This document shows positions 54,610 to 63,861 of a stretch of 64,000 bases of DNA, in pieces. How positions within the stretch are numbered: position 1 is the stretch's first letter; each line of letters opens with the position of its first letter. Origin of the DNA: Selenomonadales bacterium. Lineage in GTDB: Bacteria > Bacillota > Negativicutes > Sporomusales > UBA7701. Position numbers and translations under genes: made by a program. A model generated the notes under the pieces. It was not told where the DNA came from and ran no database searches. It saw only the letters and a list, made by a program, of their open reading frames with translations. The stretch spans positions 124,001 to 188,000 of the forward strand of contig JARKPR010000088.1 of NCBI GenBank assembly GCA_029975165.1. Direction: 5' to 3'.

Positions 54610-57267
54610 CTACAGCGAATTGGCGCTTACCACCGCCTCCGGCGAGTAGCCGGCCGAGTAGCCTGTCGCCCGCTCCGGCCGGCACTTTTCGAATGCCGCG
54701 ATCACCGCCAGCACGGCTTCGTATTTTTCGTAGAAAACCACGATCAAATCGCCGGGAAGGGCGGCTTCGAGCGCGGCCTGTACGGCCTCGTCCTCGGCCA
54801 GGATGGTCGTAATCCGGTCGGCGGCGATGCCGGCATCCAGCGCCCCCCGGCGGAGAAGCTCGGCCGTCTCGCCGGGCGCCCGCCCCCGCAGATCGCGGTC
54901 CTCCTTGATGAACAGGTAATCGAAGCCGCGCCCGGCCACCCGGCCGACATTCCTGATGACGTCGTCCCGCCGGTCGCCCGGGGCGGCGATCACCCCCACC
55001 AGCCTGGCGGCGCCGAGCCGTTTAACCGTATTCAGAAGCGCCTGGTAGCCGGCCGGGTTGTGGCCATAGTCCACGCAGACCCGGAAGTCGCCGATCTTCA
55101 TCAGGTTCAGGCGGCCGGGGTTCTGGTCGAAGCTCGACAACCCCCGGCGGATGCAGCCCAGCGGCACCTTTAGGCAATAACAGGCCGCCGCGGCGATAAC
55201 CGCGTTCTGGACATTGTGCAGGGCGATGCCCCCCAGCGTGACCGGTACGTCCTTCACCTTGACGACCGCCCGCCCCAGGCTGCCGCTCGCCGCGTATATC
55301 ATCCCGTCCTTGACGAAGAACGCCTTGCCGCCGACGCTCAGGTGCCGGCGGACGAGCAGGTTGTCGGGCTCGGTGCTGAAGTACACCACCTCGCCCTTGG
55401 CCCGGCTCCGCAGGGCGGTTACATAGGGATCGTCGGCGTTGAGCAGCGTGTAGCCCCCCGGCTTGACCACCTCGACCAGCAGCGATTTGATATATACCAG
55501 GTCCTCGATGTCTTCGATACCGTCCTGGCCGAGGTGGTCTTCGCTGACATTGGTAACGACGCTTACGTCGCAGGTGTCGAACCCCAGGCCGCTGCGCTGC
55601 ATCCCGCCCCGGGCGGTCTCCAGCACCGCCACCTCCACCGCCGGGTCGCTGAGCACCATGCGCGCGCTGGCCGGGCCGGTCGTATCCCCGGCCATGATTC
55701 GCCGGCCGCCGATATAGATGCCGTCGGTGGTCGTCATGCCGGCGCAATACCCGGCCGTCTGCCAGATCTGGCCGATCATCCGGCTCACCGTCGTCTTGCC
55801 GTTCGTGCCGGTGATGGCGATGAGCGGGATACGGCCGTTGCCGCCCCGCGGGAAAAGGTAGTCGACGATGCCGGCGGCCACGTCGCGGGCCTTGCCGGCC
55901 GTGGGATAATGGTGCATGCGGATGCCTGGCGCGGCGTTGATCTCGATTACCACACCCCCGTTGCCTCTGATAGGCCGGCCGATGTCCTCCGCCACGACGT
56001 CCACCCCGGCGACGTCGAGGCCGAGGAGGGCCGCCGCCCGCTCGGCGAGCAGCACGTTGTCGGGATGCACGGCATCGGTGACGTCCACCGCCGTGCCGCC
56101 GGTGCTCAAATTGGCGTTTTCGCGGATATAGACGACCCGGCCCGCCGCCGGCACCGCCTGCGGGGTCAGTCCCTGCCTGGCGAGCACCATCACCGCCACC
56201 GGATCGATCGCGATCTTCGTCAGCGGCCGTTCGTGGCCGTCGCCGCGCAGCGGATCACGGTTGACGAGCGCCACCAGCTCGTTGACGCTGTGGACGCCGT
56301 CGCCCAGCACATACGCGGGGATGCGTTCGGCCGCCGCCATCATCTTGCCGTTCACCACGCACAGCCGGTACTGCCGGCCGGGGATGAACTCCTCCACCAG
56401 CACCCGCTTGTCGAAAGCGGCGGCGATGGCGAATGCCCGTTCCACGGCGGCGGGGTCGGTGATATTGAGCGTCACGCCCTTGCCCTGGTTGCTGCCGACC
56501 GGCTTGACCGCCACCGGACAGCCTAGAGCTTCGGCTTCCCGCACCGCGGCGGACGCCGTTTCCACAACCATTCCGTCGGGTACGGGCACCCCGCCCCCGG
56601 CCAGGACATGTTTGGTAAGCGCCTTGTCCCCCGCCAGGTCGACGGCCAGCGCTCCCGTCCGCCCGGTGACCGTGGCCCATACCCGCTGCTGCCGGCAGCC
56701 GTAGCCCAGGATAAGCAAATCCTCGCCCGCCACCCGCGTCACCGGCACGCCGCGGCGCGCGGCCGCGGCGGCGATGGCGGCCGTGCTGGGCCCCAGGTCG
56801 CTGGCTTCGCCCGCCTGCCTGATGCGGGCGGCCGCCGCCGCCGTGTCGCCGTGGCCCCCCGCCAGCAGCGCCGCCAGCAGGCGCCCGGTTTCCTCCACCG
56901 CCGCCGTCGCCGCCGCCAGCACCCGGTATGCGACCACGACCTCGTACAGACCCGCCCGGCCGGCCTGCCGGGCCTTGCCGAAGTTCACTTCATAGCCCGC
57001 CCGGCACTGCAGCTCGAGCACGCAATGCTCGAAGACATGGGGCAAATAGGTGCCTTCCTCCAGCCGTTCGACGAACCCGCCCGGCACGCCGCGGCTGCAG
57101 CCGTGCTCGGCCAGCCCCGGCAGAGCCGCCAGCAGGCGGGGGACGAAATCTCCGAGCTCGCTTGTCGGCACCTCCTCCTCGTCCGTCAGTTCGAGCCTTA
57201 CCCGCAGCACCGGACGGTGGCTGTAAATGTTGGCCCCCGGCAGTGCCTGCATCGAAAGTATCCGCAT
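54610..57267 (-). CDS. cphA: Cyanophycin synthetase
   Basis: An 885-residue enzyme that polymerises Asp and Arg into cyanophycin. ATG at 57267 follows AGGAGGAGC. Order of parts: N-terminal domain (1-165), ATP-grasp (about 215-475, including VKPVGSNQGKGVTLNI), and a Mur-ligase-like domain (about 485-860) with P-loop ITGTNGKTT near 488-495 and the conserved VTNVSEDHLGQDG. Length and order fit CphA. cphB lies immediately upstream, so polymer can be made and degraded from one locus. This is a nitrogen/carbon store, notable in a heterotrophic Firmicute. Confidence 0.94.
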   Translation of the reverse strand: MRILSMQALPGANIYSHRPVLRVRLELTDEEEVPTSELGDFVPRLLAALPGLAEHGCSRGVPGGFVERLEEGTYLPHVFEHCVLELQCRAGYEVNFGKARQAGRAGLYEVVVAYRVLAAATAAVEETGRLLAALLAGGHGDTAAAAARIRQAGEASDLGPSTAAIAAAAARRGVPVTRVAGEDLLILGYGCRQQRVWATVTGRTGALAVDLAGDKALTKHVLAGGGVPVPDGMVVETASAAVREAEALGCPVAVKPVGSNQGKGVTLNITDPAAVERAFAIAAAFDKRVLVEEFIPGRQYRLCVVNGKMMAAAERIPAYVLGDGVHSVNELVALVNRDPLRGDGHERPLTKIAIDPVAVMVLARQGLTPQAVPAAGRVVYIRENANLSTGGTAVDVTDAVHPDNVLLAERAAALLGLDVAGVDVVAEDIGRPIRGNGGVVIEINAAPGIRMHHYPTAGKARDVAAGIVDYLFPRGGNGRIPLIAITGTNGKTTVSRMIGQIWQTAGYCAGMTTTDGIYIGGRRIMAGDTTGPASARMVLSDPAVEVAVLETARGGMQRSGLGFDTCDVSVVTNVSEDHLGQDGIEDIEDLVYIKSLLVEVVKPGGYTLLNADDPYVTALRSRAKGEVVYFSTEPDNLLVRRHLSVGGKAFFVKDGMIYAASGSLGRAVVKVKDVPVTLGGIALHNVQNAVIAAAACYCLKVPLGCIRRGLSSFDQNPGRLNLMKIGDFRVCVDYGHNPAGYQALLNTVKRLGAARLVGVIAAPGDRRDDVIRNVGRVAGRGFDYLFIKEDRDLRGRAPGETAELLRRGALDAGIAADRITTILAEDEAVQAALEAALPGDLIVVFYEKYEAVLAVIAAFEKCRPERATGYSAGYSPEAVVSANSL

Positions 57268-57341
57268 CTGCTTGCTCCTCCTAGTCGCCTTTCCCGCCGG
57301 AAGTAGTTTCCCGGCAGCCGCAAAAATGCCGCGACGCATCC

Positions 57342-58151
57342 TCATTTGCGCTCGTAAGGAACGCGCCGCTTCAGATCGTAGCCGTACCCGCCCGGCAATA
57401 TATGCAGGATGACGTTGGTCAAGGCCAACGGATCATATTGCTGGGATTCGGAGATATTCGAATGGACGACCCGTTTACCGTCGATAACCGTCACTGTCTG
57501 CGAACCGATAACCTCGAAAATCCGCTGCGGCGAAACGATCAGCGCCGTATCCTCGTCAATGCCGACGCCGAGGATATGGGGATTCTGGGCCACCGCTGCC
57601 AGCAGGCGGTTGATCCGGCCGCGCTGGGCGAAATGCTGGTCGATGACCACCTCGGCCAGCAGTCCCATGCCGTGGGCCATGCTCAGCATCGCCTTCTTGG
57701 CCGTCGCGCTCGAGCCGCCATCGACGATCATCGTGTCGCTCATCACCGATGCCCCGGCGCTCGTACCGGCGATCACCACCCCGCGCCGGAAGGCGCGGCG
57801 AATAGCAGCGTCCACCTCCGAGCCGCCGAGAATACTCGTCAGCCGGAGCTGGTCGCCGCCGGTAAAGAAAATCCCTGTGCAATTCGCCAGTTCCTCGTCC
57901 TGATGCCGGCTGTTGGCCGCCTGCCGGTCGGCTACGGCCACGATTGCCACACTGGCCGCGCCCAGTTCGCCAAAGACGGCGCGGTACTCCTCCCCCGCCT
58001 CATGGGGGTGTTCGGTAGCCGTCGTCACCAGCGCGATCCTGGCGTCGCGCCCGCCGGCCAGGGCCACGAACTTGCGCAAAATAACGCACTCGCCCTGCTT
58101 ATCTTCGTTGCCGCCGATAACCAGCAGATTGCCTGCCTGTGTTTCGCTCAT
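57342..58151 (-). CDS. cphB: Cyanophycinase
   Basis: A 269-residue serine exopeptidase that releases beta-Asp-Arg dipeptides from cyanophycin. The nucleophile Ser131 is in GTSAGAS (129-135), GIFFTGGDQLRL is at 93-104, and the ending HILPGGYGYDLKRR is family-like. No signal peptide, so it acts in the cytosol, consistent with internal polymer. About 75 bases ahead of cphA on the same strand. Confidence 0.93.
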   Translation of the reverse strand: MSETQAGNLLVIGGNEDKQGECVILRKFVALAGGRDARIALVTTATEHPHEAGEEYRAVFGELGAASVAIVAVADRQAANSRHQDEELANCTGIFFTGGDQLRLTSILGGSEVDAAIRRAFRRGVVIAGTSAGASVMSDTMIVDGGSSATAKKAMLSMAHGMGLLAEVVIDQHFAQRGRINRLLAAVAQNPHILGVGIDEDTALIVSPQRIFEVIGSQTVTVIDGKRVVHSNISESQQYDPLALTNVILHILPGGYGYDLKRRVPYERK

Positions 58152-62137: not shown

Positions 62138-63055
62138 TTAACCTTTCGGCATGCCTGCGCCTACGTCCAACAGCCAGCCGGCTATCCAGCCCGTGGTCGC
62201 GCCGTCGCTCAGCACCACCCTGTACCAGCCGAAAGCCTGATCCTTCAGTGTCACCATCTCCCCTGAGTTCACCTTGGTGACCACCGGGAAATTGGTGCCG
62301 GGACCGGTGCGGACGTTGACATTGGTGCCTGTTACCGTCGCCGTTCCGCCAACTCCCATGCTCACTCCGGCCGTAGGCGCAACGCCCGGACCGGTAACGA
62401 AAACATTGCCCGTGGATGCCACGATGCCGGACGTCAGCTGCGCGGTGGCGGAAGCCGTCGTGACCTCGACCATGCCGATCTCGTCGACCGGCGTCAGCGC
62501 GTACACGTCCATCTCGGTGGTCGTTACCACCCGGACCCAGACTTTAAGTACGATGGTGATATGAACGCGGCGATGATGATGGTGGCGGTGGAAGTCATAA
62601 TCGACAAATTCTACCGCCACATCGGCGGTTGCCTTCATGTCCGGCATGGCGCCGTCAACATCAATATCGCGCGTCCACCGGACGTTGCGCTGCTCGAAGG
62701 CCTGCACAGGCTGATCGGGTTGATCGGACACGTATAATACTTTGACTTCCAGCTTGCCGCGGATAATGACCTTGTTGGGTATCACATCGACGCTGCTGAT
62801 GCACAGATCTTTTACGAAAACGTCGATAACCTGCTCGATATCCGGCCGCGGGTCCGGCACTTCCATGTCGAACTCCACGACCTTCTGAGCCATATTGGCG
62901 CCGAGGACCTGCTCGACCTGGATGGTTTCCGGACCGGGCTCGGGGCAGCCGCACACCACTTCGGCGCTCTGCGCCATCCCGACGCCCGCCGACACCATCA
63001 CGGTATCGGACGTCGAGGCTGTCGAGCCGGAGCTCTGTCTCTTATTGTCAGTCAT
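62138..63055 (-). CDS. SPOCS (DUF3794) domain protein with C-terminal SH3b domain
   Basis: A 305-residue protein. The SPOCS (DUF3794) domain is at about 40-185: KVVEFDMEVPDPRPDIEQVIDVFVKD, VIPNKVIIRGKLEVKVLYV and RWTRDIDVDG. A His patch (DFHRHHHHRRVH, about 154-165) lies at the same place as the large insertion of the upstream paralogue. The C-terminus (about 235-300) is an SH3b domain with NVNVRTGPGTNFPVVTKV and WIAGWL, which binds cell-wall or peptide ligands. SipL, a SPOCS protein, binds SpoIVA in Clostridioides difficile. Here a coat or cortex-anchoring role is inferred. Second gene of a two-gene operon. Confidence 0.85.
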   Translation of the reverse strand: MTDNKRQSSGSTASTSDTVMVSAGVGMAQSAEVVCGCPEPGPETIQVEQVLGANMAQKVVEFDMEVPDPRPDIEQVIDVFVKDLCISSVDVIPNKVIIRGKLEVKVLYVSDQPDQPVQAFEQRNVRWTRDIDVDGAMPDMKATADVAVEFVDYDFHRHHHHRRVHITIVLKVWVRVVTTTEMDVYALTPVDEIGMVEVTTASATAQLTSGIVASTGNVFVTGPGVAPTAGVSMGVGGTATVTGTNVNVRTGPGTNFPVVTKVNSGEMVTLKDQAFGWYRVVLSDGATTGWIAGWLLDVGAGMPKG

Positions 63056-63092: not shown

Positions 63093-63797
63093 TCAGCCTT
63101 TCGGGACCGTAGGCATAGTGGCGCCGCCGAATTGTACCTCGCGGTCGGCCAGAACCTTGGCGGTGATCTTCAGGACCACCGATACGTCGAAACGCCTGCA
63201 GTGGTGGTGATGGTGATGATGATGGCCGCAATCGTCGTCGCAGTGGCCGTGATCGTCGTCGCAGTCGTCGTGGTCGTGGCAGTCGTGGTGGTCGTCGCAG
63301 TCGTCGTCGTGCCACTTCTTCATATCGCCGTATTTGTAGCGGTGGGCGTGGGTATGCTCCTCTACGTCGAAATCGACGTATTCCACTACTACGCTGGCGT
63401 CGGCGTCCATCCCCTTGCGGGCGCCGGGAATGGCGATATCCTGCGTCCACCGGTAATGCCGCACTTCAACGGCGTGTACCGCCATTTCGGGCGTATCGGC
63501 GACATAAATGGCCTTAATCTCCAGTTCGCCACGGACAATTACCTTGTCGGGGATGACGTCGACGCTGTTTATCTCCACATCTTTCACAAACACGTCGACA
63601 ATCTGCTCGATGGGCGGTTTTTCGTCAGGGACAACCACGTTGACATCCAAAACTTTCTGCTGTTCCGCCTCGCCGATTACCTGCCGGACAATTATCGGCC
63701 CCGCCTGTACGCCCAACGTGCAAGCGTTGGGATTGACAGCCGCGTACGTTCCTACGGACGAGGCGCTTACCGTCTGCCGCAAGCTTTTGTCGTCCAC
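63093..63797 (-). CDS. SPOCS (DUF3794) domain protein with extreme His/Asp/Cys-rich insertion
   Basis: A 234-residue protein (GTG start after AGGGGGG). The SPOCS domain covers about 35-215, but residues 163-200 are an insertion of only His (15), Asp (15), Cys (6) and Gly (2), including eight consecutive His. The base composition of this stretch is repeat-like (GTG/GAC triplets), consistent with expansion. The paralogue downstream has a smaller His patch at the same place. The loop should bind transition metals. A candidate sporulation promoter lies upstream. The role is not known; a spore-layer metal-binding scaffold is an inference. Confidence 0.88.
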   Translation of the reverse strand: MDDKSLRQTVSASSVGTYAAVNPNACTLGVQAGPIIVRQVIGEAEQQKVLDVNVVVPDEKPPIEQIVDVFVKDVEINSVDVIPDKVIVRGELEIKAIYVADTPEMAVHAVEVRHYRWTQDIAIPGARKGMDADASVVVEYVDFDVEEHTHAHRYKYGDMKKWHDDDCDDHHDCHDHDDCDDDHGHCDDDCGHHHHHHHHCRRFDVSVVLKITAKVLADREVQFGGATMPTVPKG

Positions 63798-63831
63798 ACA
63801 TATTCCCCCCTTTGTGTTTTCTAGTTATATA

Positions 63832-63854
63832 TATGCCTCCATTTTGTCTTATGT
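63832..63854 (-). promoter_or_regulatory. Candidate sporulation-type (sigma-K/E-like) promoter of the SPOCS operon
   Basis: Minus strand AC, 17 bases, CATATATATA, resembling the sigma-K pattern AC-N16-17-CATAnnnTA with one extra base. Located about 35 bases upstream of the GTG start. No strong sigma-A boxes are seen near it. Confidence 0.4.
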
Positions 63855-63861
63855 GACAAAA
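63842..63861. other. Inverted repeat upstream of the SPOCS operon
   Basis: TTTTGTC - 6 bases - GACAAAA, perfect 7-bp arms overlapping the candidate -35 region. It could be an operator. The remaining 63862-64000 shows no gene. Confidence 0.4.

Follow-up and report, generated by a model that had tools for sequence, protein, structure and literature searches.

Spore-forming Negativicutes carry a small SPOCS protein, here termed group A, in which a single hairpin of the predicted β domain is expanded into a loop rich in His, Asp, and Cys. Across the class, the position and composition of this loop are conserved, whereas its sequence and length vary freely. Comparative sequence evidence makes it very probable that group A, a SPOCS-family member distinct from SipL, belongs to a spore layer and is produced in the mother cell. 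The SPOCS domain itself, the role of SPOCS proteins in spores, and the yabG neighborhood are already known. No description of the loop, its class-wide conservation, the pairing of group A with a second SPOCS gene (group B), or the group A promoter was found in the literature searched, which comprised mostly non-subscription papers, and the same is true of Negativicutes coat proteins and of a SipL or SpoVID equivalent. To our knowledge, coat assembly in the diderm spore formers of this class is almost unstudied.

The Group A Gene and Its Loop

The features of group A and its partner are collected in Table 1, with positions given for the window (the whole stretch of 64,000 nucleotides that was analyzed).

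Table 1. Features of the group A and group B SPOCS genes in the window.
Feature	Position	Strand	Details
Putative mother-cell promoter	63826..63857	(-)	-10 CATATATATA at 63826-63835; -35 AC at 63853-63854; spacer 17
Group A SPOCS gene	63797..63093	(-)	GTG start; 234 aa; one SPOCS domain and His/Asp/Cys loop
Pfam PF12673 (SipL/SPOCS) match, residues 63-145	63363..63611	(-)	46.5 bits; cut-off 23.6
His/Asp/Cys/Gly loop, residues 163-200	63198..63311	(-)	Predicted disordered; pLDDT <50
Last long β-strand of the SPOCS fold, residues 201-221	63135..63197	(-)	3' of the loop; conserved in alignments
C-terminal tail TMPTVPKG of A	63096..63119	(-)	(L/M/V/I)PxxPKG-COOH; near-universal in groups A and C
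Group B partner gene	63055..62138	(-)	305 aa; SPOCS domain and C-terminal SH3; beside A throughout the class loci examined
Short hairpin loop of B equivalent to the A loop (HRHHHHRR)	62567..62590	(-)	8-14 residues in group B, often H/C/D
SH3_3 domain of B, residues 245-296	62168..62323	(-)	45.4 bits

The match to PF12673 confirms the preliminary description of the gene product as a SPOCS protein and, together with a ribosome-site-like GGGGGG and the conserved promoter, rules out an antisense or chance open reading frame. The translation also agrees with the composition first given for residues 163–200 (HDDDCDDHHDCHDHDDCDDDHGHCDDDCGHHHHHHHHC), which consist of 15 His, 15 Asp, 6 Cys, and 2 Gly and include a run of eight His at residues 192–199. 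The chance of 38 consecutive His, Asp, Cys, or Gly residues is approximately 1e-24 on a crude background taken from the long frames of the window, in which these four residues make up 23% of positions and His is inflated. The host genome (4.19 Mb, 100 contigs) was also scanned for runs of CAY codons. Six such codons were found in frame within a coding sequence only at the eight-His run; the two further six-CAY sites lie in Arg/Pro/His-rich frames that are apparently non-coding. Codon usage within the loop is mixed (13 GAC and 2 GAT; 11 CAC and 4 CAT). The loop DNA contains weak tandem repeats (an 18-bp unit present 3.9 times at 83% match and a 9-bp unit present 5.8 times), showing that slippage contributed to loop length, but it falls short of a perfect microsatellite.

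The loop starts 18 residues past the end of the PF12673 match. As the Pfam model stops at residue 145, the loop follows the match rather than interrupting it, and the original placement of the insertion inside the SPOCS domain does not hold by this measure. The placement does hold in the predicted fold, where strands comprising residues 131–145 and 201–221 flank the loop.

Predicted Fold

The fold was modeled with AlphaFold2 from only three sequences, namely the A and B proteins of the window and the group A ortholog of locus L049, with a mean pLDDT of 64. The β core of A is predicted mostly at high confidence, with pLDDT values below 50 for residues 148–198, and the model suggests that the loop would be disordered in vivo. 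Long strands in the A model span residues 35–56, 63–82, 85–100, 109–122, 131–145, and 201–221, and the loop occupies the hairpin joining the fifth and sixth of these. The sixth strand (FDVSVVLKITAKVLADREV) is kept in all paralogs and has counterparts in the SPOCS repeats of SipL, in which the same hairpin contains just a few residues (e.g., EFVQASIEDERRVVVKLVLKV), which identifies the loop as an expansion of a standard hairpin. A Foldseek search with the A model returned nothing at E <0.001. The top structural rows were α-crystallin (small heat-shock) domains with a Z of 4.7, which is below a meaningful level and too weak to support a claim. No solved homologous structure emerged: the matches to PDB sequences look like purification His-tags only, and the fold rows are weak and α-crystallin-like.

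Conservation of the Loop Across Negativicutes

Every one of the 28 genomes of the order has a group A ortholog, and orthologs also occur in spore-forming members throughout the class. These orthologs exclude a strain-specific expansion or an assembly artifact, the outcome that the preliminary description had set against its own proposal. Its statement that no described SPOCS protein has such a loop stands for the literature searched, but the loop is widespread rather than unique to this genome. Locus L049, for example, is syntenic with the window and encodes a group A ortholog that is approximately 80% identical.

Inserts, delimited by the end of strand five and the beginning of strand six, were measurable in 51 of 53 group A sequences and have a median length of 61 residues (range 26–155). 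Across these 51 inserts, His, Asp, and Cys account for 19.5, 25, and 9.2% of residues, respectively, versus 2.0, 9.2, and 0.5% in the domain core. Cys is thus enriched 17-fold and His 10-fold, and Glu is not enriched overall. Every insert contains at least two Cys, and 43 of the 51 contain at least eight His. The inserts of eight orthologs are His-poor and mostly Glu-, Asp-, Pro-, or Cys-rich; these orthologs fall in several parts of the tree, and the inserts of three genomes (G027, G014, and G010) are essentially Glu/Pro/Ala-rich with 3–4 Cys. On the tree of group A cores, the His-poor state requires seven changes by parsimony, and the number of His losses is uncertain because just two of these changes are forced by well-supported branches. 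Cys and acidic residues are thus the constant part of the loop in these alignments.

Link to Sporulation

Three independent lines of evidence connect group A to the spore. Of the 380 genomes of the class, 54 have SPOCS genes and 54 have SpoIVA (51 over the cut-off); the two sets are nearly identical, with few exceptions. SPOCS genes are found without SpoIVA in G010, G100, G112, and G118, with G010 and G100 being 65% and 83% complete, respectively. Full SpoIVA is found without SPOCS in G097 and G122, both of which are fragmented, along with a few weak matches below the cut-off.

The second line is the promoter. A CATATATAT(A/G) -10 element lies upstream of 52 of 53 group A genes and is preceded by AC at exactly 17 nt in 44 of these, such that the AC-N17-CATATATATA promoter is almost invariant among group A orthologs. 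This promoter resembles the mother-cell sigma-K/sigma-E type, where the putative sigma assignment is drawn from the consensus sequences of B. subtilis. The sigma-K -10 consensus in B. subtilis is CATANNNTA, and the group A -10 element does not match it exactly.

The third line is the locus. Even distantly related families share the gene order (tatD)-yabG-CAP-small Cys protein-A-B-cyanophycinase-cphA-ispE. The corresponding stretch in Clostridioides difficile reads yabG-veg-sipL (PMC10681294), and comparison of this arrangement with the yabG-A-B-ispE order places A and B in a sipL-like position. Because SpoIVA co-occurrence, the sporulation-type promoter, and the yabG neighborhood agree, group A can be assigned to a spore layer with high confidence, and the assignment made in the preliminary description gains strong comparative support. 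The mother cell would produce the protein, which would then assemble around the forespore.

Several neighboring genes recur at these loci. In most of the loci examined across the class, the SPOCS pair has genes for cyanophycin synthetase and cyanophycinase as neighbors (positions 54610–58151 of the window), an arrangement that may point to a connection between cyanophycin and sporulation. A CAP-domain-like secreted protein and, on the opposite strand, a small Cys-rich zinc-ribbon-like protein (CGLEFDYYGCRGLCPRC) recur between yabG and the SPOCS pair (L050:949–1314 and L049:7452–7745).

Paralogs and the C-Terminal Tail

At the position of the A loop, group B proteins have a hairpin of 8–14 residues that are often His, Cys, or Asp. 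A third SPOCS gene, group C, is located elsewhere in the host genome (G000:C49, L003) and encodes a longer loop of the A kind, with a median of 84 and a maximum of 133 residues and at least four Cys in 26 of 26 sequences. Some group C loops are built of tandem units such as DDCDDDWDGHWKHKHHH. In three group C neighborhoods, nothing recurrent was recognized except a LysR-type regulator gene that adjoins two of the three.

The conserved C-terminus listed in Table 1 may be a binding or cross-linking tail common to the SPOCS family. A role as a genome-wide sorting tag was rejected, as within the host genome (F/L/I/M)Pxx-PKG-stop is restricted to two proteins, those of groups A and C. A terminal KG is also seen in several SipL-type proteins from outside the class (L136, L140, L144–L146, L152–L153, L155, L157, L159, L161, and L163).

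Two irregular loci were also observed. In L049 (8718–9377; G003:C35), the SPOCS-SH3 gene ends prematurely after ...KATADV, where it runs into unrelated sequence that may represent a mobile insertion, and the adjacent His/Asp/Cys gene is intact. Four genomes of genus g11 (G015, G021, G022, and G023; L127, L128) contain, at a separate locus, an additional set of clustered SPOCS genes that are short and divergent.

Possible Roles of the Loop

The most likely role of the loop, at roughly even odds on the sequence evidence, is that of a multivalent bridging element, acting through metal and/or disulfides, in coat assembly. In such a mechanism, group A would be made in the mother cell together with the neighboring SPOCS-SH3 protein, and in spore-forming Negativicutes the A and B pair holds the yabG-ispE region where clostridia keep sipL. 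By extension from SipL and SpoVID, the six-stranded SPOCS β domain would pack against SpoIVA or SPOCS partners at the forespore surface, and the hairpin of its last two strands would extend as a disordered, tentacle-like segment composed of His, Asp, and Cys. Many weak metal-ligand sites (for Zn2+ or another divalent ion) and/or disulfides would then link neighboring molecules. These bridges would form late in coat maturation without a defined sequence; the mother-cell cytosol is reducing, so disulfides would be possible only late. Since bridging would need composition and position rather than a fixed sequence, Cys would be universal and His nearly so, and only composition, position, and rough length would be kept. 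The 8 of 51 orthologs that are His-poor count against bridging, as they indicate that the metal-rich composition is not indispensable.

The loss of His from these eight orthologs, set beside the retention of at least two Cys in all 51, weakens a pure His-metal store and keeps both disulfide/metal bridging and an acidic spacer in play. As a metal store or buffer, the loop would hold several Zn, Ni, Co, Cu, or Fe ions in the coat, either to supply outgrowth or to sequester toxic metals, and would have no structural role. The presence of 15 His, 15 Asp, and 6 Cys within 38 residues is consistent with storage, the possible sites would be multiplied by the loops present throughout the class and by the longer ones of group C, and disordered His-rich loops elsewhere bind zinc, as described for PA4063 (PMC8561739). 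Storage nonetheless appears quite improbable, as the His-poor orthologs keep the gene, promoter, and locus, and no gene for metal transport or regulation was recognized beside group A. A docking spacer that is acidic, flexible, or pH-sensitive would instead exploit charge and disorder (His protonation, Asp/Glu repulsion) in a metal-free manner similar to CotY. Such a role would suit the His-poor orthologs, whose inserts are of comparable length and mostly still acidic (Glu, Asp, Thr, Pro), and CotY offers a precedent. CotY carries a His-rich C-terminal tail (KKHHHNG) considered to mediate docking on CotVW at low pH, and the protein associates with CotVW filaments at pH 6 but does not do so at pH 8 (PMC12630357). 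A charge spacer needs no Cys, however, and Cys is 17-fold enriched and kept in 51 of 51 inserts; moreover, His is enriched 10-fold and Glu is not enriched overall, which makes a docking spacer an unlikely explanation.

It is also conceivable, although very improbable, that the loop is a functionless, near-neutral repeat expansion in a tolerant hairpin that owes its composition to slippage of GAC/CAC/TGC-like triplets. The weak tandem repeats in the loop DNA would fit such an origin, as would close relatives that differ by units such as DN or DH. On the other hand, the same residue classes, encoded by mixed synonymous codons, recur in 43 of 51 genomes spanning the class, Cys is never lost (51 of 51), and NAY codons in group A inserts are strongly biased toward Asp (782) and His (549) versus Asn (146) and Tyr (45), or 1331 versus 191.

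The bridging reading can be extended to the whole basal coat. It is possible, if on balance doubtful, that SipL gave way in spore-forming Negativicutes to two or three single-SPOCS proteins whose hypervariable His/Asp/Cys tentacle makes the basal coat a metal- and disulfide-crosslinked layer. If true, this would constitute a metal-setting mechanism for endospore coats, for which no earlier description was found in the literature searched. Metal coordination would join the known ways of spore-coat hardening, and spore metal content would become approachable by experiment in genera such as Sporomusa. The analysis points to genes at a sipL-like locus, a conserved promoter, and a loop composition that suggests metal or disulfide bridging. 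The occurrence of the loop at one position throughout the spore-forming Negativicutes makes such bridging in coats a testable idea.

Comparison with Known Systems

SipL of C. difficile contains three DUF3794/SPOCS domains and a C-terminal LysM domain that binds SpoIVA. Similar to SipL, group A has the SPOCS fold, a yabG neighborhood (PMC10681294), and class-wide co-occurrence with SpoIVA. In contrast to SipL, A and B each have one SPOCS domain instead of three, profile searches found no LysM in either protein (B has SH3 instead), and group A has the long His/Asp/Cys hairpin loop. No three-SPOCS LysM frame was found among the matches listed for the class, and A and B thus likely stand in for SipL in spore-forming Negativicutes. 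SPOCS matches were found in 154 of 398 genomes of the phylum sample. The 29 out-of-class loci sampled mostly contain frames of approximately 500–600 residues with several SPOCS repeats and, where visible, a LysM end; no His/Asp/Cys loop was found in these 29 loci, which have at most 8 His, Asp, and Cys per 25 residues. One out-of-class locus (L143) encodes a SipL-type protein with three SPOCS repeats in which SH3 replaces LysM, a possible intermediate to the SPOCS-SH3 proteins of Negativicutes.

SpoVID and CotE of B. subtilis resemble group A as SPOCS-domain coat morphogenetic proteins. Group A differs from SpoVID in scoring 12.5 bits against the SpoVID-N model PF20918, under the cut-off of 27.1. 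PF12673 itself has no match in 14 control genomes, with the presence of B. subtilis among them shown by the SpoIVA control.

Other parallels concern composition. CdeC of C. difficile is likewise a Cys-rich morphogenetic protein of the spore surface; the CdeC model (NCBIfam NF052417) scores 11.8 bits on group A, far under its cut-off of 350, and the weak match falls at the loop and reflects a resemblance in composition only. The CotY/CotVW crust proteins of B. subtilis share with group A a His-rich segment at the spore surface that is thought to mediate assembly (PMC12630357). No sequence relation to group A was seen, however, and the CotY tail is short, basic, and pH-driven; divalent metals fragment CotVW filaments rather than build them (PMC12630357). 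Finally, PA4063, ZnuA, and AdcA resemble group A in having a disordered His-rich loop within a folded domain. These proteins function in zinc acquisition or trafficking rather than in spores, whereas the group A loop is known by its composition, in which Cys is abundant.
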